Assembly: GCA_027311945.1 (NCBI GenBank)
Contig: DAICXZ010000032.1
Location: forward strand, 62,001-126,000
Direction of reading: 5' to 3'
From: Erythrobacter sp.
GTDB lineage: Bacteria > Pseudomonadota > Alphaproteobacteria > Sphingomonadales > Sphingomonadaceae
DNA: 64,000 nucleotides
The notes under the pieces were generated by a model. It was not told where the DNA came from, searched no databases, and saw only the letters and a program-made list of their open reading frames with translations. How positions within the stretch are numbered: the first letter of the stretch is position 1; each line of letters starts with the position of its first letter. Position numbers and translations under genes: made by a program. Shown here piece by piece: positions 9,049 to 31,781 of the stretch.

Positions 9049-9049
9049 G

Positions 9050-9669: not shown

Positions 9670-9698
9670 GCGAGCGGAGGAGGGATGGGTGAACAAGT

Positions 9699-12898: not shown

Positions 12899-12916
12899 TC
12901 TTGGATGCTCCTTCGC

Positions 12917-13297: not shown

Positions 13298-13440
13298 GGC
13301 TTGGGTTCTCCTCTCGGGCCGCACGCATCGAGCGCGCGTGACTCGCTTTATCGCATAGCCGAAGTTTTCGGCCTTGTGAAAGAATGAATGCGCGTCCGGG
13401 CAAATTCGGCTGGCACAACAGGACTGGCTCTCGTGCGGGC

Positions 13441-16389: not shown

Positions 16390-16851
16390 CTATTCGTGGA
16401 TTCGCGCGAGCATTTCCACCAATTTCTTGACTTCGTCCGAAGTGAACCGGCTCTTCAGCCAGCGCTCGTGTTCTTTGATGCAGGCTTTCGCCTCTTCCAG
16501 TGCCTTCTTGCCCGCATCGGTCAGGTGGAGCAACTGCTTGCGGCCATCGGAAGGGCAGCGTTCGCGCCACAGATAGTCTCGTTCCTGCATTCGGCTGACG
16601 ATCGACATCGCGGTCGCCCGGTCCATGCGCAGGCGATTGCCCAGCTCGCTCTGCGCTATTCCGGGCATTTCGGCCACCAGCCACAGGGTGCTGACCTGCT
16701 TCTGCGTCAGCCCGAGCGTGGCGAAGGTTTCGGTGAAATGGCGATAGACGGCCCCGTGCGCGAGGCGGATATGGAAGCCCAGCACAGAGTCGAGCGAAGC
16801 CGGGCCATGCCCCGCTCCGTCTTTGCTCTCGATCAATGCAGACTGTGCCAC
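16390..16851 (-). CDS. MarR-family transcriptional regulator
   Basis: A 153-aa winged-helix regulator. The DNA-binding region runs through LGLTQKQVSTLWLVAEMPGIAQSELG and RMDRATAMSIVSRMQERDYLWRER (residues about 55-105), and flanking helices form the dimer. Members of this group sense phenolic ligands. It is divergent from the lignostilbene dioxygenase gene and first in line before the AAHS transporter and formaldehyde genes, so it is the likely local repressor. A candidate operator lies at 16879-16897. Confidence 0.9.
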   Translation of the reverse strand: MAQSALIESKDGAGHGPASLDSVLGFHIRLAHGAVYRHFTETFATLGLTQKQVSTLWLVAEMPGIAQSELGNRLRMDRATAMSIVSRMQERDYLWRERCPSDGRKQLLHLTDAGKKALEEAKACIKEHERWLKSRFTSDEVKKLVEMLARIHE

Positions 16852-16878
16852 TGTTCCTATCCCGTCGACCTTGCCTAT

Positions 16879-16897
16879 TTGTTAGTGAAGCATACAA
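16879..16897. promoter_or_regulatory. Candidate MarR operator between marR and lignostilbene dioxygenase gene
   Basis: Imperfect inverted repeat TTGTTAG-TGAAG-CATACAA (7-5-7 architecture) in the divergent promoter region. The same architecture with the same right half-site CATAC(G/A)A occurs at 29621-29639 in front of an NTF2-like gene. It sits 30 bases upstream of the dioxygenase start and 28 upstream of marR, a position that would block both promoters. Binding is inferred only. Confidence 0.5.
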
Positions 16898-16926
16898 TCG
16901 AGCGCAAGGAGAGGAGTCGAAAGACA

Positions 16927-18414
16927 ATGGCGCAGTTTCCAGACACACCGAGTTTTACCGGGTTCAACACCCCCAGCCGGGTCGAGGCCGATATCGAGGA
17001 TCTCGATGTTGACGGGACCATTCCGCCCGAGATCGACGGCGCGTTTTTCCGTGTGCAGCCCGATCCGCAGTTCCCGCCACTGCTCGGCGACGATATCGCC
17101 TTCAACGGCGACGGGATGATCACCCGCTTCCACATCCACGATGGCCAGGTCGACTTCAAGCAGCGTTGGGCGAAGACCGACAAGTGGCACGCCGAGCGCG
17201 AAGCGGGCCGCGGGCTGTTCGGCAAGTATCGCAACCCTGTCACCGACGATCCCAGCGTGAAGGGCATGATTCGCTCCACCGCCAACACCAACGCCTGGAT
17301 CTATGCCGGCAAGCTGTGGGCGATGAAGGAAGATAGCCCGGCGCTGATCATGGACCCGGCCACGATGGAGACCGACGCCTTCCAGACCTGGGAAGGGGCG
17401 ATGAAGTCGCAGACCTTCACTGCGCACCCGAAGATCGACCCGGCCACCGGCAACATGGTCGCCATCGGCTATGCCGCCTCCGGTCTGTGCACCGAGGATG
17501 TCTCCTACATGGAGGTCGCGCCCGATGGATCGCTGGTACGCGAGAAATGGTTCAAGGTGCCCTACTACTGCATGATGCATGATTTCGGCATCACCGAGGA
17601 TTATCTCGTGCTGCACATCGTGCCTTCGACCTCCAGCTGGGAGCGACTGAATGCGGGCGAGGTCCACTTCGGGTTCGACACCACCATGCCGGTCTATCTC
17701 GGCATCATCCCGCGCCGCGACGACCTGAAGGACGAGGACATCCGCTGGTTCAAGCGCGACAACTGCTTTGCCAGCCACGTCGTCAACGCGTGGCAGGAAG
17801 GCTCGAAGGTTCACTTCGTGGTTCCCGAGGCGAAGAACAACATGTTCCCGTTCTTCCCCGACATCCACGGCGCCCCCTTCAACGGCCCCGAGGCAATGAG
17901 CAAGCTCACCCGCTGGACCGTCGACATGGCGAGCAACGGCGAAGACTTCGCCGAGATCGAGCAGCTGACCGACACCGCCAGCGAGTTCCCGCGGATCGAC
18001 GACCGCTTCACTGGTGTGAAGAACCGCTACACATGGGGGCTGGAGATGGACATGCGCCGCCCCAACGAGCTGAAGGGGGGCAGCGCCGGCGGGTTCCTGA
18101 TGAACTGCCTGTTCCTGAAGGATCTGGAAGCCGGTGCCGAGCAACACTGGTGGTGCGGCCCGGTCTCCTCGCTGCAGGAGCCGTGCTTCATCCCGCGTTC
18201 GAAGGATGCGCCCGAGGGCGACGGCTGGATCGTGATGCTGTGCAACCGGCTGGCCGATCACAACACCGACCTGCTGATCTTCGATGCGCTCGATATCGAG
18301 AAGGGCCCGGTGGCGACGGTCCACGTGCCGATCCGCCTGCGCTTCGGCCTGCACGGCAACTTTGCCCTTAGCGAAGACATCGGGCTCAAGGCGAAGCAGC
18401 CCGAGCCTGCTTGA
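16927..18414 (+). CDS. Lignostilbene alpha,beta-dioxygenase (carotenoid cleavage oxygenase family), paralog 1
   Basis: Iron(II) dioxygenase that cleaves the central double bond of 4-hydroxystilbenes, giving two aldehydes such as vanillin. The 495-aa protein has the four iron-binding histidines of the family at H167 (TAHPKID), H218 (MMHDFG), H284 (SHVVNAW) and H476 (LHGNF). It also keeps F59, Y101 and K134, the residues reported in LsdA to bind the phenolic stilbene, at the same numbers. The ATG follows AAGGAGAGGAG. It is divergent from marR and heads a probable five-gene operon. Cleavage of a true carotenoid is unlikely given K134 and Y101. Confidence 0.92.
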   Translation: MAQFPDTPSFTGFNTPSRVEADIEDLDVDGTIPPEIDGAFFRVQPDPQFPPLLGDDIAFNGDGMITRFHIHDGQVDFKQRWAKTDKWHAEREAGRGLFGKYRNPVTDDPSVKGMIRSTANTNAWIYAGKLWAMKEDSPALIMDPATMETDAFQTWEGAMKSQTFTAHPKIDPATGNMVAIGYAASGLCTEDVSYMEVAPDGSLVREKWFKVPYYCMMHDFGITEDYLVLHIVPSTSSWERLNAGEVHFGFDTTMPVYLGIIPRRDDLKDEDIRWFKRDNCFASHVVNAWQEGSKVHFVVPEAKNNMFPFFPDIHGAPFNGPEAMSKLTRWTVDMASNGEDFAEIEQLTDTASEFPRIDDRFTGVKNRYTWGLEMDMRRPNELKGGSAGGFLMNCLFLKDLEAGAEQHWWCGPVSSLQEPCFIPRSKDAPEGDGWIVMLCNRLADHNTDLLIFDALDIEKGPVATVHVPIRLRFGLHGNFALSEDIGLKAKQPEPA

Positions 18415-18420
18415 TCTTTG

Positions 18421-18456
18421 GTTCTCTCCCCGGCACATGTTGCCGAGGGAGAGAAC
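18421..18456 (+). promoter_or_regulatory. Hairpin that covers the ribosome binding site of the serine hydrolase gene
   Basis: Arms GTTCTCTCCC (18421-18430) and GGGAGAGAAC (18447-18456) pair perfectly over ten bases. An inner CGGCA/TGCCG stem closes a five-base loop, with one bulged A. The right arm contains the Shine-Dalgarno AGGGAGAG and ends three bases before the ATG at 18460. The structure follows the dioxygenase stop by six bases and lacks a T-tract, so it looks more like a translation control or mRNA-stability element than a terminator. Confidence 0.65.
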
Positions 18457-18459
18457 ACA

Positions 18460-19716
18460 ATGATCAAACCGATGCCTATATTGTTGCGGGGTGCTGTTGC
18501 TGCTCTGCTGATCGGGTCTGCGCCCGTTCTGGCGCAGGCGGATGATACCGTCACCGAAGCCGAAGTCGTCGGCAGCCAACCACCATCGCCAGCCACCATT
18601 TCGATGCGGTGGCAATTGCTCAACCCCGAGGTCAACGCCTTCACCTTCCGCAATACGCAGGAGGTTTTCGCCTTTCGCATGGTGACCGCGCCCGACGAAG
18701 CGCGCGCGATACCCCGCGGCGGCGAAATGGTGCTGCCGCAAGCCACGCTGGCGGGGCAGCCGGTAAGCTATGACGAATGGGCCGAGGGCACCTTCACCAA
18801 TGCCCTGCTGGTACTGCGCGACGGCAAGATCGTGTTCGAAAGCTATCGCAACCGGTTGGACGGGGCGACTCCGCACATCGGTTTCTCGATGACCAAGACG
18901 ATCACCGCCATGCTGATCGGGCAAGCGCTGGATCGCGGCGAGATTGCCAGTCTCGATGATCCGGTCAGCCGCTACGTCCCGGCTCTGGCCGATGGGGCCT
19001 ATGGCAAGGCCAGCCTGCGCGACGTGCTCGAAATGCGCAGCGGCGCGGCAATCGAGGAGCGCTACGATTTCGGCGAGAACCCCAGCCTGGCCGCGCGCAT
19101 CCACGAGACCGCGATCATCCGCAACGAAGCGCGCTTCGCCGACTTCGCCGTCGGCATTGGCCAGCGCAGCGAACCGGGTTCGCAGTTCAACTATGCCACG
19201 CTCGACACCGCCGTGCTCGGCTGGGTGCTCGAAGAGGCTACTGGGCGCACAATCGAAGACCTGATGGAAGAGCGCATCTGGCAGCCGCTTGGAGCCGAGG
19301 CTGGGGGCCATTTCCTCGCCGACGGCCCGGTCGGCGAGGGCCGCGCGCTGAACGGGATGGGGTTCAATGCGGTCCTGCGCGACTGGGGGCGGCTCGGGCA
19401 GATGCTGCTCGATGAGGGCAAGGTCGGCAACGAACAGCTCCTGCCCGCTGGCTGGGTCACGCAGATGAGCACGATGAAGCCCACCGGCATGCCCGAGGGC
19501 GCGGGCTTCCCCGGCTACGGGTTCCAGACCTGGCAGGTGGACAACGAGCCTGGCGCCTATGCGGCGGTCGGGCTGGCGGGCCAGTTCGTCTATATCCATC
19601 CCGAGACGCATACGGTCATAGTCAAGCTCAGTTACTATCCGCCCGTCGCGCCTGAGGGCGTCGACGCCGACGTCCTGTCCTACTTTGCCGCAATCGCGAA
19701 AGAGCCGCTGCCATGA
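18460..19716 (+). CDS. Secreted serine hydrolase, class C beta-lactamase family
   Basis: A 418-aa protein with a signal peptide (MIKPMPILLRGAVAALLIGSAPVLAQ, cut expected near residue 26). It carries the SxxK motif S143-M-T-K146 in GFSMTKTITAML and a catalytic-type Tyr245 in QFNYATLDT, so it is a periplasmic penicillin-binding-fold esterase or amidase, not necessarily a beta-lactamase. Between a lignostilbene dioxygenase and transport genes, an aryl-ester hydrolase role is possible but unproven. It overlaps the next gene by ATGA. Confidence 0.85.
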   Translation: MIKPMPILLRGAVAALLIGSAPVLAQADDTVTEAEVVGSQPPSPATISMRWQLLNPEVNAFTFRNTQEVFAFRMVTAPDEARAIPRGGEMVLPQATLAGQPVSYDEWAEGTFTNALLVLRDGKIVFESYRNRLDGATPHIGFSMTKTITAMLIGQALDRGEIASLDDPVSRYVPALADGAYGKASLRDVLEMRSGAAIEERYDFGENPSLAARIHETAIIRNEARFADFAVGIGQRSEPGSQFNYATLDTAVLGWVLEEATGRTIEDLMEERIWQPLGAEAGGHFLADGPVGEGRALNGMGFNAVLRDWGRLGQMLLDEGKVGNEQLLPAGWVTQMSTMKPTGMPEGAGFPGYGFQTWQVDNEPGAYAAVGLAGQFVYIHPETHTVIVKLSYYPPVAPEGVDADVLSYFAAIAKEPLP

Positions 19717-20195
19717 GTGAACCCGACTTCGAGAAATACAAGCCCGGCCTTGAGTTCGTTTACGAGGCGGGCGGCGCGCTGGAGGCTCCGCGCGAGATCG
19801 GGCCGGTGGTGGATGGCACGCGCCGCATCATTCCGATCTGCGATGGCGGCTATGTCAAAGGCCCGAAGATCAGCGGCAAGCTGATGGGCAATTCGGCCGA
19901 CTGGCAGCTCACCCGCCCCGACGGCGTGACCGTGGCCGACGCCATGTATGCCATCGAGACCGACGACGGCGCGATCATCCAGATCCGCAACAAGGGCCTG
20001 CGCCACGGCCCGCCCGAGGTGATGGACCGCCTGCGCCGCGGCGACGAGGTCGATCCGGGCGAATACTATTTCCGCACCGTGCCCGAATTCATCGCGCCCA
20101 CCGGCCCCTACGAGTGGATGAACCGTTCGATCTTCATCTGTACCGGCGCGCGGTTTGCTTCGTCGATCAAGCTGTGGGTCTGGCGCGTGACCTGA
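19713..20195 (+). CDS. DUF3237 family protein
   Basis: A 160-aa protein whose beta-rich pattern matches the DUF3237 family: FVYEAGGALEAPREIGPVVDGTRRIIPI at the start, KLMGNSADWQLTRPDGV in the middle, and EYYFRTVPEF near the end. No enzymatic role is established for the family. It overlaps the serine hydrolase gene by four bases and precedes the MFS gene by 22 bases, so it belongs to the same operon and probably the same aromatic pathway. Confidence 0.85.
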   Translation: MSEPDFEKYKPGLEFVYEAGGALEAPREIGPVVDGTRRIIPICDGGYVKGPKISGKLMGNSADWQLTRPDGVTVADAMYAIETDDGAIIQIRNKGLRHGPPEVMDRLRRGDEVDPGEYYFRTVPEFIAPTGPYEWMNRSIFICTGARFASSIKLWVWRVT

Positions 20196-20217
20196 CCTGC
20201 GCCCTGAGGGAGAGGAT

Positions 20218-21465
20218 ATGGGCGCAACTGACGCCACCGCATCGTCAAGCCGCAGGTATCAGATCCTGCTGGTAAGCCTGCTGTGCCTGAACTTCGGCAT
20301 CCTGTTCTTCGACCGGAACGCGCTCAATTTCCTGATGCCTTTCATCCAGCCCGAGCTGGGGCTTAGCTACACCGAGGTCGGCCTGCTCGGTTCGGCGCTG
20401 TCGCTGACCTGGGCGCTGGCGGCGATCTTCGTCGGCTGGCTTTCCGACAAAACCGGCAAGCGCAAGATTCTGATCCTCGTCTCCACGTTGACCTTCTCGG
20501 TCTGCTCGGTCGTGTCGGGCCTCGCCACGGGCTTCCTCATGTTGCTCGGCGCGCGGCTGCTGATGGGGCTGAGCGAGGGCGGGGTCATGCCGATAAGCCA
20601 CGCGATGGTCGCCCACGAGGTGGAGCCGAAACATCGCGGGCTGGCCATGGGCGTGACCCAGAACCTGGGCTCGAGCATCCTCGGCTCCTCGGTCGCGCCG
20701 CTGGTGCTGGTGCCGGTGGCGCTCGCCTATGGCTGGCGTAACGCGTTCTTCCTTGCCGCGGTGCCGGGGCTGATCTCGGCGCTGCTGATCTGGCTGTTCG
20801 TGATCGAGCGCAAGCTGCCGCCGCGCCCGGTTCCAGCGCCCGGATCAAAGCCGCCGCTGCTCGAAGTGGCGAGCGAGCGCAACGTGATCGTCTGTGCGCT
20901 GCTGGCGATCCTGCTGGTGGCCTATCTCGTCGTCACCTGGGCCTTTATGCCGCTCGTGCTGGTGCAACTGCGCGGATATTCCGAGAGCGATGCGGCCTGG
21001 CTGATGGCGGTGCTGGGCATCGCGAGCGCGGTCTGCGGCTTTCTCGTGCCTGCCCTGTCCGACCGGCTCGGGCGGCGGCCGGTGATGGTCGGCTTCACGC
21101 TGTCGGGCGTGATCCTGCCGCTCGGCGCGCTGCTGTTCGATGGAGCTTTTGCGGCCATGGCGCTGATCTTCTTTGCCGGCTGGGCCTTCAACGGCATCTT
21201 CCCGATGTTCATGGCGACCGTGCCCGCCGAAAGCGTCGACCCGGCCCGCGCGGCGACGGCCATGGGTATCGTGATGGGCGTGGGTGAGGTGCTGGGCGGC
21301 GTGCTCGCGCCGACCATCGCCGGGAGCCTTTCCGACGCTTACGGCTTGCAAGCGGTGTGCTGGCTGCTGGTGGTGCTCGCGCTTGGTGGCACGCTTGTCG
21401 GGCTGGCCTTGCGCGAAACGGCGCCCGCTGTGATCGCCCGCCGCGCCGCCCTATCCCCCGCCTGA
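20218..21465 (+). CDS. MFS transporter (ACS-like, organic anion)
   Basis: A 415-aa, 12-helix permease. TM1 contains FGILFFDRNALNFLMPFI and the loop 2-3 motif is GWLSDKTGKRKILI. The central cytoplasmic loop IERKLPPRPVPAPGSKPP separates the two six-helix halves. The DR-N-N pattern in TM1 is like the anion:cation symporter group that takes up organic acids. Substrate unknown. It lies within the operon that starts with lignostilbene dioxygenase 1. Confidence 0.85.
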   Translation: MGATDATASSSRRYQILLVSLLCLNFGILFFDRNALNFLMPFIQPELGLSYTEVGLLGSALSLTWALAAIFVGWLSDKTGKRKILILVSTLTFSVCSVVSGLATGFLMLLGARLLMGLSEGGVMPISHAMVAHEVEPKHRGLAMGVTQNLGSSILGSSVAPLVLVPVALAYGWRNAFFLAAVPGLISALLIWLFVIERKLPPRPVPAPGSKPPLLEVASERNVIVCALLAILLVAYLVVTWAFMPLVLVQLRGYSESDAAWLMAVLGIASAVCGFLVPALSDRLGRRPVMVGFTLSGVILPLGALLFDGAFAAMALIFFAGWAFNGIFPMFMATVPAESVDPARAATAMGIVMGVGEVLGGVLAPTIAGSLSDAYGLQAVCWLLVVLALGGTLVGLALRETAPAVIARRAALSPA

Positions 21466-21479
21466 CCGGAGACCTGCCC

Positions 21480-21938
21480 ATGACCTTGCCCACGCCCGCC
21501 GATGACCTTGCCATCCGCCAGTTGTTTGCGCGCTACTACCGCGCGCTCGATGTGGGGGACACCGAGGGCTATCTCGATTGCTACACCGCCGATGCCCGCG
21601 CCTACGAAGAGGGGGCCAATGGGATCGAGATTCGCGAGGGCCGCGAGGAAATCCGCAAACTGGTGCTGCGCTTTCACGAACGGCCCGATTTCCCCGGCCA
21701 CCAGCACCATTTCGGCAACATGATCTACGAGCCCGATCCCGAGGGCCGCAACGACTGCTGGGTGGTGCTCAGCTATGCCATGAGCACGATCACCCGCCCC
21801 GGCGAGGGCACGATCATGCACTGGAGCGGCCATGTGCGCGATGTAGTGGTGAAGCAGGGCGACCAGTACCTCCTCGCCTCCAAGCAGATCATGGCATGGG
21901 GAGGCGAGGTGCTCGAAAGGTTTTCACAGCGGGGGTGA
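21480..21938 (+). CDS. SnoaL/NTF2-like protein
   Basis: A 152-aa cone-fold (NTF2-like) protein: DDLAIRQLFARYYRALDVGDTEGYLDCYTADA near the start, EIREGREEIRKLV, then strands with HQHHFGNMIYEP and WVVLSYAMST. This fold is used by isomerases, dehydratases and, in sphingomonads, by lyases that release formaldehyde from lignin dimers. Last gene of the dioxygenase operon, 14 bases after the MFS gene. Catalytic residues cannot be assigned with certainty. Confidence 0.82.
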   Translation: MTLPTPADDLAIRQLFARYYRALDVGDTEGYLDCYTADARAYEEGANGIEIREGREEIRKLVLRFHERPDFPGHQHHFGNMIYEPDPEGRNDCWVVLSYAMSTITRPGEGTIMHWSGHVRDVVVKQGDQYLLASKQIMAWGGEVLERFSQRG

Positions 21939-22020
21939 CATCTGGTCTCATTGCCCTAGTTTCGGAACCTGAGCCCGCAAACCTGTTTAATCAGGTGTAA
22001 CCGCAAAAAAGGAGTCCCTC

Positions 22021-22587
22021 ATGCGTAAATTCGCTTTACCCTTGCTCGCCCTCGGCGCTGTATCCCTAGCCGCCTGCGGCGGAAACGAACCCGCCGAAGA
22101 ACCCGTGGCTGACGACATGGCCATGGAAGGCGCAGCCCCCGGAGCCGGCGAGGCCGCTACCGCTACGCTGATGACGGCAGAAGGTGAAGAAGTCGGCACC
22201 GTCACGGCCACCGGTTCCGCCGGAGGGATTACCATCGACGTGTCGGCGATGAACATGCCCGAAGGTCCGCATGGCGTGCATATCCATACGGTCGGTTCTT
22301 GCGAGGATGGCTTCGCTGCTGCTGAAGGGCACTGGAATCCCGACGATTCGATGCACGGACTCGAAGGCGACGATGGCCAGCACGCGGGCGACATGCCCAA
22401 TCTCGAAATCGGCGCCGATGGCACCGGTTCGCTTACCTACATGCTCTCCATGTCGGCTACGTTCGATGGCCTGCTGGATGAAGATGGCTCAGCCTTCATT
22501 GTCCACGCTGGCGAAGACGACCAGACCACCGATCCTTCCGGTGACAGCGGCGATCGCATCGCCTGCGGCGTGTTTACCGCAGGCTGA
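22021..22587 (+). CDS. sodC: Superoxide dismutase [Cu-Zn], lipoprotein form
   Basis: Periplasmic enzyme that converts superoxide to hydrogen peroxide and oxygen. The 188-aa product starts with a lipoprotein signal (MRKFALPLLALGAVSLAAC, lipidated Cys19), then an acidic linker to about residue 45. Copper ligands H87, H89, H104 and H162 and zinc ligands H104, H112, H121 and D124 are all present, as is the disulfide pair C94/C182. An AAGGAG ribosome binding site precedes the ATG. The 3' end is convergent with the helicase gene. Confidence 0.95.
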   Translation: MRKFALPLLALGAVSLAACGGNEPAEEPVADDMAMEGAAPGAGEAATATLMTAEGEEVGTVTATGSAGGITIDVSAMNMPEGPHGVHIHTVGSCEDGFAAAEGHWNPDDSMHGLEGDDGQHAGDMPNLEIGADGTGSLTYMLSMSATFDGLLDEDGSAFIVHAGEDDQTTDPSGDSGDRIACGVFTAG

Positions 22588-22593
22588 TACCGT

Positions 22594-22620
22594 CCGCGCG
22601 GCCTAGTCGCGCGGCTTCTT
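22594..22620. terminator. Hairpin between convergent sodC and helicase genes
   Basis: CCGCGCG at 22594-22600 pairs with CGCGCGG at 22608-22614 around a seven-base loop that includes the helicase stop, followed by CTTCTT on the plus strand. A second stem, GCCTGCGG with CCGCAGGC, lies just upstream at 22561-22584 within the end of sodC. They probably act as a terminator pair, though the T-tract is weak. Confidence 0.45.
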
Positions 22621-24483: not shown

Positions 24484-24574
24484 GGCGCGCGAATCATCGG
24501 CGCGCGCAGCTGCTCAGACCGCGCGCCTTACACGCAAAATCCCGTTTCGCTCAGCGCGAAATTTATTGCGGGGT

Positions 24575-26113
24575 CTATTTGATCCGCACGTCGAGCAAGC
24601 TCGGCCCGCTTTCCGCCATGCTCCAGCCCAGCGCTTCGTCGAGCGCATCGACACTGTCGACCCGCCGGGAAGGCACGCCAAGCCCTTCTGCAAGCTTGGC
24701 AAAATCGAGCCCGGTAAGATCGCAGCCGGGCACGTGGTTCATCCCGAACTCGCTCGAAAAACCGGTCAGCGCTGCATAGGCCGAATTGTTGAGCACCACG
24801 AAACTGACGTTCGCTTTCTCCTGAAACGCGGTGAACAGGCCTTGGATCGTGTACATGGCAGAGCCATCGCCGAGCACGGCCACGACCTTGTCCTGCTGCC
24901 CCAAGGCCACGCCGATGGCGGCGGGCAACGAATGGCCGAGGCCGCCGCTGGCGCAGGTGTAGAAACCGCCCTTGCGGGTGATCGGCAGCGTGACATGTTC
25001 CGGCCCGCGCGCGGTGGGCGCCTCTTCCACGATCACGGCATTATCGGGGCGCAGCGCGGCGATGCGCTTGAGGACATAGGGTGCCTTCATCTCTGGCTCG
25101 GGGTCGATCAGCTGGTGGCTGGTGCCGGAGAACGGGCGTGCCTTCACGGTTTCGGTCAGCATGGAAAGCGCCGCTGCCGGATCGCCCAGCACGCCGCCGC
25201 CGCCGGGCAGGTTGGAAAGGTGGTTCGGATCGTCGCTCAGCGCCATCAGCGCTGCGCCCTCGGGCCAGTGCGGGCCGGAGCCTTCGACATGGTAGGTAAA
25301 CACCGGCGCGCCGAGCACGAGGATTGCGTCATGGGGGCTGAGCGCATCGCGGATCTGGTCGCGCCAGGCGTTGAGGAAGCCTGCAAACTGCGGGTGCGTT
25401 TCGGGAAAGGTTTCGCGCGCGGCATAAGGCGCGGCCCAGACGCTGACCCCGGTCTTTTCAGCCAAAGCAATCGCCGCATCCCAGCCGCCCGCATTGGCGA
25501 CCCCGGTGCCGAGCACCAGCGCAGGGTTCTTCGCGCCATCGAGCATGGCGGCGATTTTGGCGATGCCGGCCGGGTCCGGGAAGGTGTGCAGGGTGAGGTC
25601 GGGCAGGGCGGGCATTTCGCATTCCCGCTCCCAATCGTCGACCGGGATGGACACGAACACCGGGCCCATCGGCGGGGTCAGCGCCACGGCGAACGCGCGC
25701 GCGAGTGCGAGCGGCACGTCTTCCGCGCGCGCGGGTTCGATGGCGAATTTCACATAAGGGCGCGGGAATTCGGTGGGGCGCTCGGCACCGAGGAACGGGT
25801 CGAACGGCAGGATCGAGCGGGCCTGCTGGCCTGCCGTCACCACGATCGGCGCGTTGTTCTTCCAGGCGGTGAACAGGTTGCCAAGCGAATGGCCGGTGCC
25901 CGCCGAGGAGTGCAGGTTGACCAGCGCGGGTTTGCCGCTGGCGCGGGCGAAGCCATCGGCCATGCCCATCACCACCGCTTCGTTGAGGCCCATGACATAG
26001 GGGAAGGGCATGCCCTTGAGCATCGGCAGTTCGGTGCTGCCGGGGTTGCCGAACAGCCGGTCCACCCCGAAGTGTTCGAACACCCGATAGGCCGCTTCGC
26101 GTACATTGGTCAT
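24575..26113 (-). CDS. mdlC: Benzoylformate decarboxylase-type thiamine diphosphate enzyme
   Basis: ThDP-dependent 2-oxo acid decarboxylase that turns benzoylformate-type acids into aromatic aldehydes. The 512-aa product keeps the catalytic residues known from Pseudomonas putida benzoylformate decarboxylase: S26 (GNPGSTELP), E45 (GLNEAVVMG), H68 (NLHSSAGTGHS) and H275 (APVFTYHVEGSG). The cofactor motif GDGSAMYTIQG...LNNSAY lies near residue 425. The ATG at 26113 has the ribosome binding site CAGGAGAT. It neighbours a LigW-like decarboxylase and an aldehyde dehydrogenase, so the natural substrate may be a hydroxylated or methoxylated phenylglyoxylate; that is inference. Confidence 0.88.
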   Translation of the reverse strand: MTNVREAAYRVFEHFGVDRLFGNPGSTELPMLKGMPFPYVMGLNEAVVMGMADGFARASGKPALVNLHSSAGTGHSLGNLFTAWKNNAPIVVTAGQQARSILPFDPFLGAERPTEFPRPYVKFAIEPARAEDVPLALARAFAVALTPPMGPVFVSIPVDDWERECEMPALPDLTLHTFPDPAGIAKIAAMLDGAKNPALVLGTGVANAGGWDAAIALAEKTGVSVWAAPYAARETFPETHPQFAGFLNAWRDQIRDALSPHDAILVLGAPVFTYHVEGSGPHWPEGAALMALSDDPNHLSNLPGGGGVLGDPAAALSMLTETVKARPFSGTSHQLIDPEPEMKAPYVLKRIAALRPDNAVIVEEAPTARGPEHVTLPITRKGGFYTCASGGLGHSLPAAIGVALGQQDKVVAVLGDGSAMYTIQGLFTAFQEKANVSFVVLNNSAYAALTGFSSEFGMNHVPGCDLTGLDFAKLAEGLGVPSRRVDSVDALDEALGWSMAESGPSLLDVRIK

Positions 26114-26177
26114 GGTCGTCAAATCTCCTGTCCCCCGGCCTGCGCGCGGGTGCAGACCATCGTTGTCGTGGCGGCGT

Positions 26178-26204
26178 GGGAGCGGGCCGCAACAGCCCGC
26201 TCCC
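26178..26204. other. Strong hairpin between the LigW-like and benzoylformate decarboxylase genes
   Basis: GGGAGCGGGC (26178-26187) and GCCCGCTCCC (26195-26204) form a perfect ten-base stem with a seven-base loop. There is no T-tract on the minus strand. It lies in a 104-base gap between two genes of the same direction and may tune expression or mRNA decay between them. Confidence 0.6.
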
Positions 26205-26217
26205 GGTGCAAGCCCGG

Positions 26218-27276
26218 CTAGATGCCGAACAGCGCCTCCGCATTGGTCTGGTAGAACTTCTTCATCGTCTCGCGCGGCAGGTCCATCGCATCGAGCAGGC
26301 GGACCTCGTCGGGCACGTACTGGTAAGGATAGTCCATCGCGTACATCACCCGGTCCTCGCCCATCACTTCCATCATCAGCTTGATCGAGGCAGGGCTCGG
26401 CAGGCCGGAATTGGTGCCCCACACGTTGTTGCGCAGATAATAGTGCAGCTCGTGGTTCTGCGGCTTCATCCGCTCATAACGGCCCGAGCGGATGCCCGCC
26501 TGGTGCATGTAGTTCAAGCGGTCGATCCAGAACGGCAGGCCTTCGCAGCCATGACCGAGCACCAGCTTGAGCGAGGGATAGCGGTCGAACGCACCCGAGG
26601 TGAGCAGGCGCAGCGCGTGGAAGCTCGTCTCCACCGCGAAGCCGAACACTGCGCCTTCGAGGCCGACCTCGGCCATGGTTCCGATCATGTCATCGGGCGG
26701 GCCTTGCGGGTGGATGTAGAGCGGCATGTCAAGCTCGGCGCAGGCGCGCAGGATCGGGGCGAACTGCGGCTCGTCGAGATAGTGGCCGTGGGTGTGCGAG
26801 TTGATCTGCACGCCGACGAAGCCCAGCTCCTCCTTCGCACGCTTCAGCTCCTGGGCAGACCATTCGGCATCCTGCGGGCACACCGCCGCCATGCCGATGA
26901 AGCGATCGGGATAGCGTTCGCAGGCGGCCTTGAGGTGGTCGTTGGCGCGCGAAGCAATGCCGCGCGCCTCGTCGAGGTCGAACAGCGACTGCACGCCGGG
27001 GCTGGTCAGCGCGAGCACGGCCTTGTCGATTCCGGCATCGTCCATCGCCTGGATGCGCAATTCGCCAAGATCGAGCAGCCGCTCGCGGATGAAGGTGGTG
27101 CGTTCGCTCGGCGAGGTGCCGTAGAAGCCCCAGAGGTTCATCGTGCCCTTGTCGGCGCGGCCTTCCTTCACCAACCGCAGGATCGCGTCCATCTGCTCCT
27201 GCGTGGCGAAAGCTTCCTCGGTGGCGATGCGCAGGTAGCCCTTCTGGCCCCCTGTCAGCAGTGGTTCGGTCGTCAT
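26218..27276 (-). CDS. Amidohydrolase-superfamily decarboxylase, LigW-like (5-carboxyvanillate decarboxylase family)
   Basis: Metal-dependent non-oxidative aromatic decarboxylase. The 352-aa protein begins near LRIATEEAFAT and keeps the metal and active-site residues of Sphingobium LigW shifted by one: E20 (ATEEAF), H189 (LYIHPQG), H242 (LGHGCEG) and D315 (YAMDYPYQY). Shared stretches include DKAVLALTSPGVQ and VGVQINSHTHGHYLDEP. LigW removes the 5-carboxyl of 5-carboxyvanillate to give vanillate; a resorcylate-type substrate is also possible. It lies 11 bases after the aldehyde dehydrogenase gene. The ATG at 27276 was chosen at the point where family similarity begins. Confidence 0.87.
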   Translation of the reverse strand: MTTEPLLTGGQKGYLRIATEEAFATQEQMDAILRLVKEGRADKGTMNLWGFYGTSPSERTTFIRERLLDLGELRIQAMDDAGIDKAVLALTSPGVQSLFDLDEARGIASRANDHLKAACERYPDRFIGMAAVCPQDAEWSAQELKRAKEELGFVGVQINSHTHGHYLDEPQFAPILRACAELDMPLYIHPQGPPDDMIGTMAEVGLEGAVFGFAVETSFHALRLLTSGAFDRYPSLKLVLGHGCEGLPFWIDRLNYMHQAGIRSGRYERMKPQNHELHYYLRNNVWGTNSGLPSPASIKLMMEVMGEDRVMYAMDYPYQYVPDEVRLLDAMDLPRETMKKFYQTNAEALFGI

Positions 27277-27287
27277 GTCTGTTCCTC

Positions 27288-28718
27288 TCAAGCTTCGTGA
27301 ACGGTCTTGGTGACCATGCAGGCGAGCACGCCCTCGGGGCCGTCCTCGCTGCCGTGGCCTGACCACTGCACCCCGCCGAACGGCGCATCGGCGCCGCCGA
27401 TCATGTGCGTGTTGATGCCGACCATCCCGGCCTCGATTGCATCGCCAAGGCGGCGCTGGCGCGCAGCATTGGTGGTCCAGTTGTAGGCGGCAAGGCCATA
27501 GGGCAGTCGGTTGGCCTCGGCGATCATCTCCTCCTCGGTGCGATAAGGGTTGATCAGCGCCAGCGGGCCAAACGGCTCTTCGTTCATCACATCGGCATCG
27601 AGCGGGATTTCGCTGAGCACGGTGGGCTGGAAGAAGAAGCCCTGATTGCCGATCCGCTCGCCGCCGGTGTTGAGCCGCGCGCCCTTCTCCACCGCATTGG
27701 CGATGAACTTCTCCATCGCTTCGGGACGGCGGGGGTTGGCCATTGGGCCCATCTGCACGCCATCCTCAAGCCCGTTGCCGACTTTGGTCGCAGCCAGCCG
27801 TTCGGCCATGCCGTCGCGGAACTTCTCGAACACGTTTTCCTGCACGATGAAGCGGGTGGGCGAAACGCAGACTTGCCCGGCATTGCGTGTCTTGCCCGGC
27901 GCGGCGGTGGCGAGCGCGGCATCGACATCGGCATCGTCGAAGATCAGCACCGGGCCGTGGCCGCCCAGTTCCATCGTGGTGCGGATCATGTTGTCGGCGG
28001 CCAGCTTCACGAGGTGCTTGCCGACCACGGTCGAGCCGGTGAACGAGAGCTTGCGGATGATCGGCGAGGCGAGCAGGTGGCTCGAAACCTCGTCGGGCAC
28101 GCCGAACACGGCCTGCGCGACCTGCTTGGGCAGCCCGGCATCAAGCAGGCATTGCAGCACGCCGAGCGCGGAGGCGGGGGCCTCTTCGGCGCTTTTGAGG
28201 ATCACCGAGCAGCCCGCCGCAATCGGCGCGCCGAGCTTGCGGCCCGGATTGCCGAGCGGGAAGTTCCACGGCGCAAAGGCCGCGACCGGGCCGATCGGCT
28301 CGTGACGCACGACCGAGCGCTGGCCCACCGGGCGCACCAATTCGCGGCCATAAAGGCGGAAGCACTCGCCAGCGTAGAACTTGAACAGCCCGACGTTCAT
28401 CATCACTTCGATTTTCGCCTCGGCGACGGGCTTGCCCTCTTCCATCGTGGCGATCCGGGCGAGGTCGTCGGCGCGTTCGACCATCAGGCGGGCTGCGCCT
28501 TCAAGCACGGCGGCGCGTTCCTGCGGGGTGGACTTGCGCCAGAGCTTGAAGCCTTCGTCGGCCACTTCGAGCGCGCGGTCGAGGTCGGCCTTGTCGGCCA
28601 GCGGCAGCTCGGCCAGCGTCTCGCCGGTGACGGGGTTCACCACGTCGAAGGTGCGGCGACCACCGCCGGAAATCTTCTCGCCGTTGATGATCATGTGGAG
28701 GGAGGGATAGTCGGTCAT
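27288..28718 (-). CDS. NAD(P)-dependent aldehyde dehydrogenase (probable aromatic aldehyde)
   Basis: A 476-aa ALDH-superfamily enzyme. Catalytic C284 (NAGQVCVSP), general base E250 (MELGGHGP), N152 (APWNFP) and K175 (ILKSAEEAP) are in place, with NEEPFGPLALI near residue 375. It resembles succinate-semialdehyde and vanillin/benzaldehyde dehydrogenases. Its neighbours make aromatic aldehydes (stilbene cleavage, phenylglyoxylate decarboxylation), so oxidation of vanillin or a benzaldehyde to the acid is the favoured role. It is followed after 11 bases by the LigW-like gene. Confidence 0.88.
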   Translation of the reverse strand: MTDYPSLHMIINGEKISGGGRRTFDVVNPVTGETLAELPLADKADLDRALEVADEGFKLWRKSTPQERAAVLEGAARLMVERADDLARIATMEEGKPVAEAKIEVMMNVGLFKFYAGECFRLYGRELVRPVGQRSVVRHEPIGPVAAFAPWNFPLGNPGRKLGAPIAAGCSVILKSAEEAPASALGVLQCLLDAGLPKQVAQAVFGVPDEVSSHLLASPIIRKLSFTGSTVVGKHLVKLAADNMIRTTMELGGHGPVLIFDDADVDAALATAAPGKTRNAGQVCVSPTRFIVQENVFEKFRDGMAERLAATKVGNGLEDGVQMGPMANPRRPEAMEKFIANAVEKGARLNTGGERIGNQGFFFQPTVLSEIPLDADVMNEEPFGPLALINPYRTEEEMIAEANRLPYGLAAYNWTTNAARQRRLGDAIEAGMVGINTHMIGGADAPFGGVQWSGHGSEDGPEGVLACMVTKTVHEA

Positions 28719-28754
28719 TTGTCAGATCTCCAATCACGCCTCTCGACCGCTCAC

Positions 28755-28835
28755 CCTGAGCCTGTCGAATGGCCGTTATGTCTTTCGCGTTGCGCTCTCG
28801 GCGTCGGGGTAGAGCAGTCCTTAGTCAGGCTCAGG
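28755..28835. repeat. Degenerate copy of the CCTGAGC...TCGAA inverted repeat, copy 3
   Basis: Arms CCTGAGCCTG (28755-28764) and CAGGCTCAGG (28826-28835) pair over ten bases, and the left arm continues TCGAA as in the other copies. The interior differs. It lies in the 137-base gap between the NTF2-like gene and the aldehyde dehydrogenase gene. Confidence 0.7.
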
Positions 28836-28855
28836 ACACTCGGTGTCGGTTCAGG

Positions 28856-29605
28856 TCAATCGTTCGCCGCCAGTTTGGCATCGTGTTCGCGGTCGCCTTC
28901 CCAGCGCTCGGCCAGCATTTCCTCGCCGGTGATCGGGTGTTTCATGTGGAAGGGCAGCAGCTTGTGCGTCGGCCACAGCCAGTGGTCGTCGATCAGCGCG
29001 TCGGGCCCAGCTGGATCTTCGGGATAGAGCACCTTGGGGAAGGGTACATATTCGGCCTCGGTCTTGCTCCAGCCCTTGTCGAAATCCGCATGCCAGTGCG
29101 GGAAGTAGTTGAGCACATGGATGCGCCACTTGCCATCCTCGCCCTTCCTGTAGGTGTTCTCGTAGAGCCCGCCTTCCCACCACTGGCGCTCGTTCAGGCC
29201 CAGCTCGGGGTGGGTGAAATCGCGGTGGCGGCCCGCTTGCATGGTGGAGCGGCCGCGCAACCACGCCATCTGGCCGTCGTCGGAAACGGTGATGATCGTC
29301 TGGATCTGCGGGTGGTCGAGCAGGAAGCCGTTGACCGGGCCGTTGGTGTCATGCGTGAAGCGCTTGCGGAAGCGGTCGACATAGAGGCGGCGCACGCCTT
29401 CTTTGCCCTTCCACACCCCGCCGAAGAAACGCACCTCGCCATCGTCGGCAAACAAATCGACCACCTGATCGTACATGCATTTGTCGATCAGGTAGCCGTA
29501 GAGATACTGCAGCGAGCGCACATCAAGCTCGTCCTCGCGGCGGGCCAGGCGCCTCTCCATGTCGGCCAGCTTCGCCTCCAACGCGGCGATGCGATCTTCG
29601 GACAT
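28856..29605 (-). CDS. NTF2/SnoaL-like protein with N-terminal coiled coil (possible lignin-dimer lyase)
   Basis: A 249-aa protein. Residues 2-28 (EDRIAALEAKLADMERRLARRE) form a short coiled coil, followed by a SnoaL/NTF2 domain: LQYLYGYLIDKCMYDQVVDLFADDGEVRFFGGVWKG, and later QWWEGGLYENTYRKGEDGKWRIHVLNYFPHW. Sphingomonad gamma-formaldehyde lyases acting on diarylpropane and phenylcoumaran dimers (LdpA, PcfL/LsdE) are NTF2-like; this gene is a candidate, but residue-level proof is lacking. The ATG at 29605 has a GGGAG ribosome binding site. A perfect inverted repeat lies just upstream. Confidence 0.8.
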   Translation of the reverse strand: MSEDRIAALEAKLADMERRLARREDELDVRSLQYLYGYLIDKCMYDQVVDLFADDGEVRFFGGVWKGKEGVRRLYVDRFRKRFTHDTNGPVNGFLLDHPQIQTIITVSDDGQMAWLRGRSTMQAGRHRDFTHPELGLNERQWWEGGLYENTYRKGEDGKWRIHVLNYFPHWHADFDKGWSKTEAEYVPFPKVLYPEDPAGPDALIDDHWLWPTHKLLPFHMKHPITGEEMLAERWEGDREHDAKLAAND

Positions 29606-29620
29606 CACGAGTCTCCCAAT

Positions 29621-29639
29621 TCGTATGCTGCACATACGA
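29621..29639. promoter_or_regulatory. Candidate operator upstream of the NTF2-like gene
   Basis: TCGTATG-CTGCA-CATACGA is a perfect 7-5-7 inverted repeat, 16 bases upstream of the ATG at 29605. Its architecture and the CATACRA half-site match the site at 16879-16897 between marR and lignostilbene dioxygenase 1. It probably binds the same or a related MarR-type repressor. Confidence 0.55.
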
Positions 29640-29726
29640 TTGTGGGAGGCGATTGATCAAGTCAACGGGAATAGCGCCCCGGCAACGAAACGGACCCCTT
29701 TGCCCCCGCGCTCGCGCCGCTTCGGC

Positions 29727-31142
29727 TCAGAGCCCGCGCTCCTGCAGCCGGGCGACTTCCTCGCCATAGGGCTTGATCGCGCGCCACATGAAGATCGTCG
29801 CCAGCGGCATGAACACGCCTGCCACGATCAGCAGCGCTTCCCACAGCTTGGCCGGATCGCCTACGATCAGATCGCTCACCGTGCCGATCACGAAGCTGCC
29901 CATCGCGCCGAAGAAGGTGAACATGAACAGGTAGAACGCGGTCACCTGCCCGCGCATTTCGTTGGGGGCGATGCGCTGGATCGCGGCGTTCTGCGCCGGA
30001 GCCCCGGCGAGCCCGCAGAACGAGGTGAGCGCCATGCAGGTCAGCGCCAGTTCGCCGGTCGGCATCAGCGGGGCCGAAATGGCGAAGATCGTGGTGCAGG
30101 TGAAGATGATCGCGCAGGCGCGGATATTGCCGTCGATGTATTTGCGGTTCATCCAGCTCACGAACACGCCGCCCGCCAGAATGCCGCAGATCGAGGCGAC
30201 GAAGATGAGCGGGCCGAGCAGGTTGCCGATCTCGTCGGCGCTCCAGCCATAGGTGCGGGTGATGAACGGAACGCGCCAGGCGGGCAGCCCCTGGCTCTCG
30301 ATAGCCGACATCGCCAGCGCGAAGAATAGCGGCCAGTAAACCGCGCCGCGCGCGTTGATCGCCTTCAAAGCATCAAGCCCAGTGAAGGCGAGCAGCTTGC
30401 GGCCGAGCGGCGCATCGGGGGGCACCAGCCGGCTGGTGCCGGGCGGCAGGCGGCGGGGCGGCTCGCGCACGATCAGGAACAGGATCGCGGCAATGAGGCC
30501 CGGCGCGCCGATGATGAGCAGGATCAGCTGCCAGGAGAAGATTTCGAGCCCGAGAAAGGCGATCCGCTCGGGCATCGTATCGGTCCAGGCGATCAGCTGT
30601 CCGCCGCCCCATGTCCCAAGTGAAGAGCCGAACACGAAGCCCACCTGCACCAGCGCGAAGACCAGCGGCAGGCGGATCGGGCGGAACGCGTCGGCCAGCA
30701 GTGAATAGGAACCCGGCCCATGCGCCGCGCCGCCTGCGCCGACGAACAGCCGTGTGCCGATCAGCTGCGAGAAGCTCTGCGCCAGGCCGCCCAGCGCGGT
30801 GATCACGCCGACCACGGCGATCCCGCCCGCCAGCACCAGCTTGCGCGGATAGATATCGACGAGGCGCGACAATGGAATGCCCACGAACACGAAAGCGACT
30901 ACGCTGGCGGGGCCAAGCAGGAAGCCGAGCGCCGTATCGGACAGGCCGAAGCTGCCCTTCATCTTCTCGGCCAGCATCGCGAACACGGTGGAATCGAAAA
31001 AGGTGATGAACATCGTGAGCACGATCACGAACAGCGCGAACCAGCCCTTGCCCTCGCTCGGCCACGGCATCGGCGCCGCGCCACTGGCCTCGTCGGCAGT
31101 CGCAGTTTCAGAACTGACCGGCGCGCCGGGAGTAATGGCCAT
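29727..31142 (-). CDS. MFS transporter
   Basis: A 471-aa permease with a 30-residue hydrophilic N-terminus and 12 predicted helices. TM1 reads FALFVIVLTMFITFFDSTVFAML, loop 2-3 has GIPLSRLVDIYPRKLVL, and the central loop REPPRRLPPGTSRLVPP is charged. The overall pattern is spinster-like. The ATG at 31142 follows GAGAGAGGA. It heads the minus-strand aromatic cluster and diverges from a SnoaL-like gene, so import of an aromatic substrate is likely; the substrate is unknown. Confidence 0.84.
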   Translation of the reverse strand: MAITPGAPVSSETATADEASGAAPMPWPSEGKGWFALFVIVLTMFITFFDSTVFAMLAEKMKGSFGLSDTALGFLLGPASVVAFVFVGIPLSRLVDIYPRKLVLAGGIAVVGVITALGGLAQSFSQLIGTRLFVGAGGAAHGPGSYSLLADAFRPIRLPLVFALVQVGFVFGSSLGTWGGGQLIAWTDTMPERIAFLGLEIFSWQLILLIIGAPGLIAAILFLIVREPPRRLPPGTSRLVPPDAPLGRKLLAFTGLDALKAINARGAVYWPLFFALAMSAIESQGLPAWRVPFITRTYGWSADEIGNLLGPLIFVASICGILAGGVFVSWMNRKYIDGNIRACAIIFTCTTIFAISAPLMPTGELALTCMALTSFCGLAGAPAQNAAIQRIAPNEMRGQVTAFYLFMFTFFGAMGSFVIGTVSDLIVGDPAKLWEALLIVAGVFMPLATIFMWRAIKPYGEEVARLQERGL

Positions 31143-31265
31143 CGATGATCCTCTCTCACGGTCTTGTTGACCTTTTCCAGAGTGCCCATCAAGCAGTTTC
31201 CACGAGATGATGCAGGTCAAGGCTGTGTCGCAATTTGTCGCAGACCGAAACGGGAGAGAGAGCCG

Positions 31266-31781
31266 ATGACGAAGTATTCCGCCACCTACGCGCAGGACCG
31301 GGCCGAGATCGAGGATTTGATGGCGCGCTATCTGTTCGCCATGGATTACAACGACTTCGACACCTATGCAGAGACCTTCGCCGAGGATGGCACGCTCGAA
31401 TATGCGCGCGGCTCGGTGACCGGGCGCGAGAACATCCGTGCCTCGGCCAAGGCGTTCAAGGAGGCGGTCGGTTCGCTCTATCAGGACGTTGACGGCAACC
31501 CGGCGATCCTGCGCCACGTGCTGTGCCAGTCGGTGATCCGGGTGGAAGGCGACAAGGCCTGGCATACCGGCTTCTGGTTCGAAGCCGCCAACGACGGCCC
31601 GCGCGTGCCCGATGGCAGCCGCGTGACCCCTACTCTCGGCACCTTCGGTATCTACGAGGACGTGCTGGTGCGCGTCGATGGGGAATGGAAGTTCCAGTAC
31701 CGCAACATCAAGAACGAGTTTCTCGCCGGGCGCGATTCGGGGCAGGTGAACCCGGTGCTGGCCATGGACAAGCTTGCGTAA
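31266..31781 (+). CDS. SnoaL/NTF2-like protein
   Basis: A 171-aa cone-fold protein: AEIEDLMARYLFAMDYNDFDTYAETFAEDGTLEYARG at the start, TGRENIRASAKAFKE, then strands ending WKFQYRNIKNEFLAGR. The ATG at 31266 is preceded by GGGAGAGAGAG. It is divergent from the MFS gene across 123 bases that hold no other gene. Function is unknown; polyketide-cyclase, isomerase and lyase members share the fold. Confidence 0.82.
   Translation: MTKYSATYAQDRAEIEDLMARYLFAMDYNDFDTYAETFAEDGTLEYARGSVTGRENIRASAKAFKEAVGSLYQDVDGNPAILRHVLCQSVIRVEGDKAWHTGFWFEAANDGPRVPDGSRVTPTLGTFGIYEDVLVRVDGEWKFQYRNIKNEFLAGRDSGQVNPVLAMDKLA

Follow-up and report, generated by a model that had tools for sequence, protein, structure and literature searches.

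The stretch analysed here, called the window in its whole length, comprises 64,000 nucleotides of an Erythrobacter sp. assembly (GCA_027311945.1, contig DAICXZ010000032.1, positions 62,001 to 126,000, forward strand) and is part of contig 4 (C4) of a 3.04 Mb genome, whose nearest named relative, judged by its PcfL protein, is Aurantiacibacter suaedae (96%). Around lsdD, a lignostilbene dioxygenase gene, and pcfL, a gene for a putative lyase of the NTF2 fold, the window carries what is very probably the orthologue of the beta-5 (phenylcoumaran) dimer locus of Novosphingobium aromaticivorans, with a formaldehyde-releasing pathway; the protein and gene-order comparisons below point to this reading. 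Genes were identified through gene calling and through family (Pfam, NCBIfam/TIGR) and PDB sequence searches; a gene or protein given as a number is named by its first coordinate. The core of the locus is formed by the following elements:

14988 to 16358, minus strand: transporter of the major facilitator superfamily (MFS) in the gap between marR and adhC (PF07690); a relative adjoins marR in many related loci
16390 to 16851, minus strand: marR, regulator of the Saro_0803 family, divergent from lsdD (NF053777, 236.9 bits, cut-off 200)
16879 to 16898, plus strand: operator-like / -10 region TTGTTAGTGAAGCATACAAT in the gap between marR and lsdD (alignment with N. aromaticivorans)
16927 to 18414, plus strand: lsdD, LsdD/NOV1-type lignostilbene dioxygenase (LSD) of 495 amino acids (RPE65 family; NF053778 above cut-off; PDB matches)
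19713 to 20195, plus strand: DUF3237 protein, from the family of the decarboxylases PhcF, PhcG and PinX (PF11578, E 3.9e-40)
20218 to 21465, plus strand: MFS transporter (PF07690)
26218 to 27276, minus strand: ligW, predicted 5-carboxyvanillate/5-carboxyferulate decarboxylase (best PDB sequence 4inf, 5-carboxyvanillate decarboxylase, E 7e-151)
27288 to 28718, minus strand: ferD, predicted aldehyde dehydrogenase for 5-formylferulate (PF00171; counterpart in N. aromaticivorans)
28856 to 29605, minus strand: pcfL, predicted phenylcoumaran gamma-formaldehyde lyase, NTF2 fold, 249 amino acids (71% identical to N. aromaticivorans PcfL)
29727 to 31070, minus strand: MFS transporter adjoining pcfL (PF07690)

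To the right of marR lie lsdD, a PF00144 hydrolase gene, the DUF3237 gene, an MFS gene and a small NTF2-like gene, 21480; to its left follow an MFS gene, adhC, three small genes, fghA and formate dehydrogenase genes. Farther right, on the minus strand, the order of transcription is the MFS gene 29727-31070, pcfL, ferD, ligW and a gene of the benzoylformate decarboxylase (BFD) type, while a further NTF2-like gene, 31266, is divergent from that MFS gene. An earlier note on this DNA had listed a lignostilbene dioxygenase, three NTF2/SnoaL genes, a LigW-like and a BFD-type decarboxylase, an aldehyde dehydrogenase and three MFS transporters, all of which were found by the family searches. The start of lsdD was corrected to ATG 16927, in agreement with the start of PDB 5j53; an 835-amino-acid dioxygenase reading frame from 15907 was rejected because its N-terminal part, an upstream extension across marR and the MFS gene, overlaps genes of the opposite strand. 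The whole genome contains six RPE65-family genes (lignostilbene dioxygenase type) and four DUF3237 genes.

The 28856 protein matches three distinct PDB sequences, named NaLdpA, NaLdpA H97Q and SpLdpA in the Foldseek listing, with E values of 1.4e-49 or better. The genome of N. aromaticivorans, recognised by an LSD 100% identical to PDB 5j53 (NOV1; 489 residues), has two homologues of it at E<=1e-20, with identities of 71% (C1:845901) and 43% (C1:3029653). The former is located between an MFS gene and ferD, ligW, MFS, DUF3237, lsdD and marR, a neighbourhood that fits the published numbering of PcfL (Saro_0796), FerD (Saro_0797), LigW (Saro_0799) and LsdD (Saro_0802) (PMC11323797; this and the other papers are cited from the portions of their text that were available); the latter is NaLdpA, because 224 of its residues coincide fully (100% identity) with the PDB 8abt stretch. 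In a quick tree of the LdpA/PcfL family, which contained 28856 alone of the three NTF2-like proteins, the window protein groups with PcfL: the forks uniting it with the N. aromaticivorans enzyme have values of 90 and 91 in the Shimodaira-Hasegawa-like approximate likelihood ratio test (SH-aLRT) and are not starred, and it falls outside the LdpA clade, which is starred (SH-aLRT 98). An LdpA orthologue of the source genome itself, 73% identical to N. aromaticivorans LdpA, is found at C19:58185 (L036). H98 of 28856, in the motif LLDHPQ, aligns with H97 of NaLdpA, the catalytic-position histidine that is mutated to glutamine in 8abu. As to gene context, 28856 is accompanied by ferD, ligW and lsdD, the order MFS-pcfL-ferD-ligW-MFS-DUF3237-lsdD-marR-MFS is common to N. 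aromaticivorans, and the counterparts are 77% (FerD), 75% (DUF3237) and 64% (LigW) identical; among the named relatives, ferD adjoins pcfL in 28 of 28 stretches, ligW in 26 (the remaining two are short stretches), and an MFS relative (>=50%) stands beside pcfL in 24. By these comparisons 28856 is the orthologue of N. aromaticivorans PcfL. Its assignment as a diarylpropane (LdpA) lyase was rejected, given its place outside the LdpA clade, and so was the idea that all three NTF2 genes encode PcfL/LdpA-type lyases, 21480 and 31266 being far from both. Thus, the proposal of the earlier note that one or more of these genes encode a formaldehyde-releasing lyase holds for 28856 and is not supported for the two distant proteins; its "PcfL/LsdE" joined two enzymes under one name, since LsdE is an earlier name of LdpA (PMC12997858).

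More distant relatives of these lyases are present as well. Tandem LdpA/PcfL paralogues of about 30-35% identity occur in the source genome at C10:103818-106062 (L037, L038, L040) and C25:45582-53447 (L041, L042); several have leader-like N-termini, and the C25 frames are fused, with repeated NTF2 domains and up to 694 amino acids. In Novosphingobium-type loci L075, L103, L104, L107 and L112 and genomes G281 and G240, the best PcfL relative reaches 50-53%, and the five stretches show the usual pcfL place without pcfL; in the tree, three of these relatives make up a separate clade, which perhaps acts on another substrate.

LsdD scores 848 bits with NF053778 (cut-off 800) and matches PDB 5j53 (NOV1) with E 1.1e-279 and 6xm6 with E 1.1e-273. 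It keeps F59, Y101, N120, K134 and S283 as in LSD4 of Sphingobium sp. SYK-6, the residue numbers being those of PMC8191317; F59, Y101, K134 and S283 are residues for DCA-S binding, and S283 bonds the ferulyl hydroxyl. In the nov1 (lsdD) promoter of N. aromaticivorans, the site bound by Saro_0803 is close to the -10 box (PMC10046596), and the repeat GCAATA...TATTGC published for it in the same paper sits inside TTGTTAGCAATACATACAATATTGC, upstream of lsdD; the window element TTGTTAGTGAAGCATACAAT (16879-16898) aligns with TTGTTAGCAATACATACAATATTGC and retains the core TTGTTAG...CATACAAT. Of 64 upstream stretches, 31 contain an exact GCATACAA, and of 1280 single-letter shuffles 2 do. CATACAA, a shorter word counted with no shuffle control, occurs unchanged in 56 of 67 stretches and with a single mismatch in the other 11. 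The window also includes, at 49269-52156, ligA-ligB (protocatechuate 4,5-dioxygenase) followed by a second lignostilbene dioxygenase, which is 48% identical to lsdD, scores 798 bits with NF053778, just below the cut-off of 800, and by eye has Cys where LsdD has Ser283.

For the window itself, the sequences show orthology, a common gene order, conservation of key residues and a retained operator core, and each reaction and the inducer are carried over from published work on the orthologues, the reactions having been demonstrated in N. aromaticivorans (PMC11323797). The allylic side chain of dehydrodiconiferyl compounds would be oxidised first, after which PcfL (28856) would remove formaldehyde and the compounds would open to a stilbene; LsdD (16927) would cut this stilbene to vanillin and 5-formylferulate. 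FerD would then oxidise 5-formylferulate and LigW decarboxylate the product to ferulate, so that vanillin and ferulate could enter protocatechuate 4,5-cleavage, for which ligAB lies within the window. At the lsdD promoter, the MarR repressor of the Saro_0803 type would sense a stilbene. AdhC, FghA and formate dehydrogenase could oxidise the released formaldehyde, although the position of their operon is not tied to PcfL, and AdhC may also oxidise the allylic alcohol of the dimer, like N. aromaticivorans FdhA. In several relatives that lack PcfL, families and context suggest that the stilbene is made in the same locus by a glucose-methanol-choline (GMC) oxidase and a DUF3237 decarboxylase. Since MarR, LsdD, FerD, LigW and DUF3237 have counterparts in the N. 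aromaticivorans locus, the pathway is already known; what the window would add is the placing, by orthology, of this experimentally proven PcfL pathway in an Aurantiacibacter-like genome.

Some observations weigh against the beta-5 reading: the outer arms GCAATA/TATTGC of the published operator repeat are not retained in the window, LigW is only 64% identical to the N. aromaticivorans enzyme, and the DUF3237, PF00144 and BFD-type proteins and the two small NTF2 proteins are not accounted for by the scheme. Resveratrol-type stilbenes, too, are LSD substrates. NOV1 cleaves resveratrol (PMC11323797), and Saro_0803 is said to leave the nov1 promoter in the presence of resveratrol (PMC10046596), both of which favour a locus devoted to plant stilbenoids such as resveratrol, not to lignin dimers. 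However, resveratrol breakdown has no known place for PcfL, FerD and LigW, whose conservation jointly with lsdD points to DC-type dimers, and we consider a stilbenoid locus highly improbable. Hardly any credence is given, likewise, to a locus for beta-1 (diarylpropane) dimers in which 28856 would be LdpA: PcfL and LdpA are homologous (about 42-43%) and both pathways use an LSD and release formaldehyde, but the window protein lies outside the starred LdpA clade, the LdpA of the genome is encoded separately at C19:58185, and the window LSD is of the LsdD type, which argues against an LdpA role.

The beta-5 locus of N. aromaticivorans DSM 12444 shares with the window orthologous PcfL, FerD, LigW, LsdD, MarR, DUF3237 and MFS proteins, as well as gene order and operator core. 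What the window has in addition is a PF00144 hydrolase between lsdD and DUF3237, the BFD-type gene, further NTF2 genes and, linked to the locus, an operon of adhC, fghA and formate dehydrogenase; FdhA (Saro_0874) and the hydrolase proposed for N. aromaticivorans (Saro_2822) are both encoded outside its locus (PMC11323797). With the DCA pathway of Sphingobium sp. SYK-6 (GMC oxidases PhcC/PhcD, decarboxylases PhcF/PhcG, and LsdD) the window has in common an LsdD-type enzyme and DUF3237; compared by protein family, SYK-6 uses GMC plus decarboxylase, whereas the window has PcfL and no GMC in the locus. The diarylpropane lyase LdpA (NaLdpA, SpLdpA; PDB 8abt-8abw) is an NTF2 homologue with the catalytic-position His common to 28856, and differs in belonging to a separate clade, with its own representative elsewhere in the source genome. 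The pinoresinol cluster of N. rhizosphaerae LY, pinZ to pinU, resembles the window families in its DUF3237 decarboxylase PinX and LSD-family PinU, but has another substrate and other genes. About 45 kb right of the window, a cassette of GMC oxidoreductase, SnoaL, short-chain dehydrogenase/reductase, DUF3237 and LSD genes (C4:166000-185999, L064) looks like such a pinoresinol-type (pin) cluster; also present are a tannase-family gene and a gene for an FAD-linked oxidase that overlaps one for a cytochrome c.

The lsdD locus was compared in a set of 75 stretches, 67 of them non-redundant, which is not a random sample: it unites named relatives that a PcfL search turned up, genomes of the Novosphingobium type picked on the basis of LsdD (stretches from 50 of 59) and a family sample of 119 genomes, in which mainly the higher-scoring of 147 RPE65 matches were checked for LsdD type and PcfL was accepted at E<=1e-75. 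Eight module labels come from genome-wide searches rather than from the stretch alone, and the tests exclude seven 'other' loci, of which five have a PcfL relative of 50-53% identity. In the loci of six sample genomes without PcfL (G008, G032, G066, G079, G102 and G115; L047, L049, L050, L052, L053 and L054), marR, lsdD, DUF3237, BFD, adhC and fghA are each present in 6/6 and ligW in 4/6, the stretch ending before it could appear in the other two. All six carry, between lsdD and DUF3237, a gene for a GMC oxidoreductase of 552-559 amino acids, with the families PF00732/PF05199 in the two that were checked (L053, L054). In eight of nine loci the GMC and DUF3237 genes stand next to each other in divergent orientation, with 90-152 bp between their BLAST ends. 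Two more genomes place the GMC gene otherwise: in G076 it is 3.8 kb from DUF3237, and in G013 GMC, DUF3237, BFD and ligW are on one contig and lsdD, marR and adhC on another. In L049 and L054, ferD follows directly behind the MFS gene, pcfL being gone from its usual place.

GMC (>=72% identity) and PcfL are each found in 9 of the 119 genomes, both together solely in G069; the 18 genomes with an lsdD locus comprise eight with PcfL alone, eight with GMC alone, one with both and one with neither (G025, a fragmented assembly), an exclusion with a two-sided Fisher p of 0.0034 when kinship is ignored. The LSD tree puts the window lsdD in a starred group of eight that also contains four GMC loci and the genome with both modules, and at least four changes between modules are required; the tree test of the exclusion proves nothing alone, because it has only three independent pairs on starred branches, with a median p of 0.25. 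No GMC at >=70% was found in the 55 stretches L027-L034 and L071-L117, for which no genome-wide GMC search was made. Searched genome-wide, 20 Novosphingobium-type LsdD genomes gave PcfL of 66-79% in 10, a 50-53% relative alone in 7, a relative of about 40% alone in two (G286, G297), and nothing at E<=1e-30 in G307; with PcfL weak or absent in part of them, LsdD is evidently also found where no partner module is recognised.

The gene families of the GMC loci agree with the SYK-6 route, because PhcC and PhcD are GMC enzymes (PMC8191317) and the DUF3237 protein PinX is a homologue of PhcF/PhcG (PMC12607616). CATACAA is exact in all eight GMC-type loci and in the one locus with both modules, so that the site appears independent of the stilbene-forming module. 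As far as sequences can tell, this indicates that one conserved locus, with the same regulator site, can hold either of the two published routes to the same stilbene, the one taking the place of the other. In print (the mBio paper, PMC11323797), most of the species reported have either PcfL or PhcC/D and/or PhcF/G homologues, ten have all, and the oxidation route is common in other Erythrobacteraceae; a swap within a single locus that keeps its promoter element would be new beyond this genome-level alternative, and no statement of it was found in the available portions of PMC11323797 and PMC12997858. Related strains with one, the other or both modules would offer a natural experiment on two chemistries.

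The DUF3237 gene beside lsdD bears on the same exchange. PinX, which contains a DUF3237 domain, shares 42% identity with PhcG and 38% with PhcF (PMC12607616). A DUF3237 gene goes with lsdD in all seven GMC loci that are long enough to show it and in 37 of 51 PcfL loci (unseen in the other 14). These counts suit a gene that is required alongside a GMC oxidase and that PcfL can do without, yet most PcfL loci retain it, that of N. aromaticivorans included. Of 105 DUF3237 genes in the family sample, 31 have an RPE65 gene within 5 kb, against 1.4 expected randomly, the genomes being related and not independent. A structure search with the DUF3237 protein gave 17 matches at E<=0.001, all of them UPF0311/DUF3237-type entries or a Penicillium herquei enzyme; the phenolic acid decarboxylase PadC, compared in print with PinX, was absent among the 50 structure matches listed.

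It is conceivable, and we hold it as a tentative idea, that this organism uses both stilbene routes, namely PcfL deformylation and DUF3237 decarboxylation of a gamma-oxidised phenylcoumaran, with an unlinked oxidising enzyme. The membership of the DUF3237 protein in the PhcF/PhcG/PinX family and its place next to lsdD are in favour, together with another GMC gene, 39% identical to that of the lsdD loci, near another DUF3237 and LSD (C4:170-177 kb), with G069, where PcfL and GMC occur together, and with the ten species holding PcfL, PhcC/D and PhcF/G homologues (PMC11323797). On the other hand, nothing in the source genome matches the GMC of the lsdD loci at E<=1e-120, the 39% gene elsewhere being distant; DUF3237 is unseen in 14/51 PcfL loci but seen in 7/7 GMC loci, as if dispensable beside PcfL; and N. 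aromaticivorans, which also has a DUF3237 gene, accumulates DC-C one to one when pcfL is deleted (PMC11323797).

The formaldehyde genes are arranged to the left of marR as follows:

5927 to 11671, minus strand: NAD-type formate dehydrogenase subunits (PF01257, PF01512/PF10589, TIGR01591, PF11390)
11668 to 12507, minus strand: fghA, S-formylglutathione hydrolase (TIGR02821 above cut-off)
12518 to 13842, minus strand: three small genes in the gap between adhC and fghA (PF00903, glyoxalase/vicinal oxygen chelate fold, above cut-off for 12518 and 12917)
13856 to 14968, minus strand: adhC/fdhA, glutathione-dependent formaldehyde dehydrogenase (TIGR02818 above cut-off)

The formate dehydrogenase parts are 11243 (gamma-like), 9699 (beta-like), 6202 (alpha, TIGR01591 above cut-off) and 5927 (FdsD, PF11390), with a separate gene, 9050-9568, interposed among them; the small gene 13441 has no Pfam match and by eye resembles 12518 and 12917. 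The plain series adhC-fghA-fds that had been described directly behind marR is confirmed in its genes, but not in its arrangement: an MFS gene intervenes after marR, and the three small genes sit between adhC and fghA.

Within the family sample, adhC is located within 20 kb of pcfL in five of the nine PcfL genomes (G000, G014, G065, G103, G111); the distance is 43 kb in G075 and 83 kb in G002, and in G050 and G069 the two genes are on different contigs. When lsdD loci with at least 4.5 kb on the marR side were counted, with adhC at >=80% identity, adhC stood beside lsdD in 12/44 PcfL loci, 6/7 GMC loci, 1/1 with both modules and 0/5 others, so that PcfL is not what this linkage tracks; Novosphingobium accounts for many of the 44 PcfL loci and the counts are uncorrected for kinship, which may explain the difference between PcfL and GMC loci. 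The counts leave aside the adhC positions in ten named genomes, whose contig numbers were not matched to record names. No adhC match was found in the 20-kb N. aromaticivorans stretch holding lsdD and pcfL. In that organism, fdhA deletion leaves more formaldehyde on DC-A, and FdhA also oxidises the allylic alcohol of the dimer (PMC11323797); by analogy, AdhC might remove the formaldehyde of PcfL or oxidise the allylic alcohol. The view of the earlier note that the operon removes the formaldehyde of the lyase therefore stands as a capability, while a tie of its position to PcfL is not supported. That the operon belongs to the pathway because PcfL yields formaldehyde is doubtful: the five linked genomes and the fdhA deletion support it, but adhC is commoner beside lsdD in GMC loci than in PcfL loci, and in the other four PcfL genomes it is far off or on another contig. 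A neighbouring formaldehyde operon is, with this caution, no proof of a formaldehyde-releasing enzyme.

Four further genes of the locus stand outside the proposed scheme:

18460 to 19716, plus strand: PF00144 serine hydrolase, with a signal-peptide-like N-terminus by eye (PF00144, E 2.8e-37)
21480 to 21938, plus strand: NTF2-like protein a, 152 amino acids (SnoaL_4)
24575 to 26113, minus strand: benzoylformate decarboxylase-type (BFD) thiamine diphosphate enzyme (NF005485, 642 bits, cut-off 493)
31266 to 31781, plus strand: NTF2-like protein c, 171 amino acids (SnoaL_4)

The BFD-type gene has no role in the known pathway; 17 of the 28 named stretches have it near pcfL, and all seven Novosphingobium stretches compared (L027-L032, L034) lack it there. 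The PF00144 protein has 8rlj and 6-aminohexanoate-dimer hydrolase as its nearest PDB sequences, and at a guess it might release ester-bound dimers; its gene overlaps the DUF3237 gene by 4 bp and has a relative in 10 of 51 PcfL loci.

Among the NTF2-like proteins, 21480 gave nothing significant against the window PcfL (E 0.11-0.18) and no match to 8abt at E<=0.001, its best PDB sequence being the dioxygenase-beta-like 6vw4 (E 1.7e-6), while 31266 is 25% identical to the window PcfL (E about 1e-6) and matches 8abt with E 6e-4. The structure comparison with LdpA proposed in the earlier note was run on 31266, whose model (pLDDT, the predicted local distance difference test score, of 93) shares the NTF2 fold; LdpA was not its nearest neighbour, since Rv3472 and other cystatin-like proteins came closer (E from 8e-11), with LdpA entries from E 3.6e-9 and a putative scytalone dehydratase among the Foldseek matches. 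Fold alone says little within the NTF2 superfamily. In the relatives of 31266, H84 is invariant in the 24 that were aligned and aligns with the catalytic-position His of LdpA, and such relatives sit 35-42 bp behind two further LSD-family genes of the source genome. It would nevertheless be a rather unlikely outcome that 31266 represents a third, unrecognised family of LSD partner enzymes, making or rearranging the stilbene substrate; no paper on an LSD + NTF2 pair of this kind was found among the 10 of 198 matches listed. The two pairs lie in C10:37000-56999 (L065) and C10:86000-105999 (L066), and, if that were true, would be periplasmic dimer-cleaving pairs. By eye, both LSDs have a twin-arginine-type leader (MKRRDFM..., GRRDFLG...) and their NTF2 partners a signal-peptide-like leader, and a pyrroloquinoline quinone alcohol dehydrogenase gene is present near each pair.

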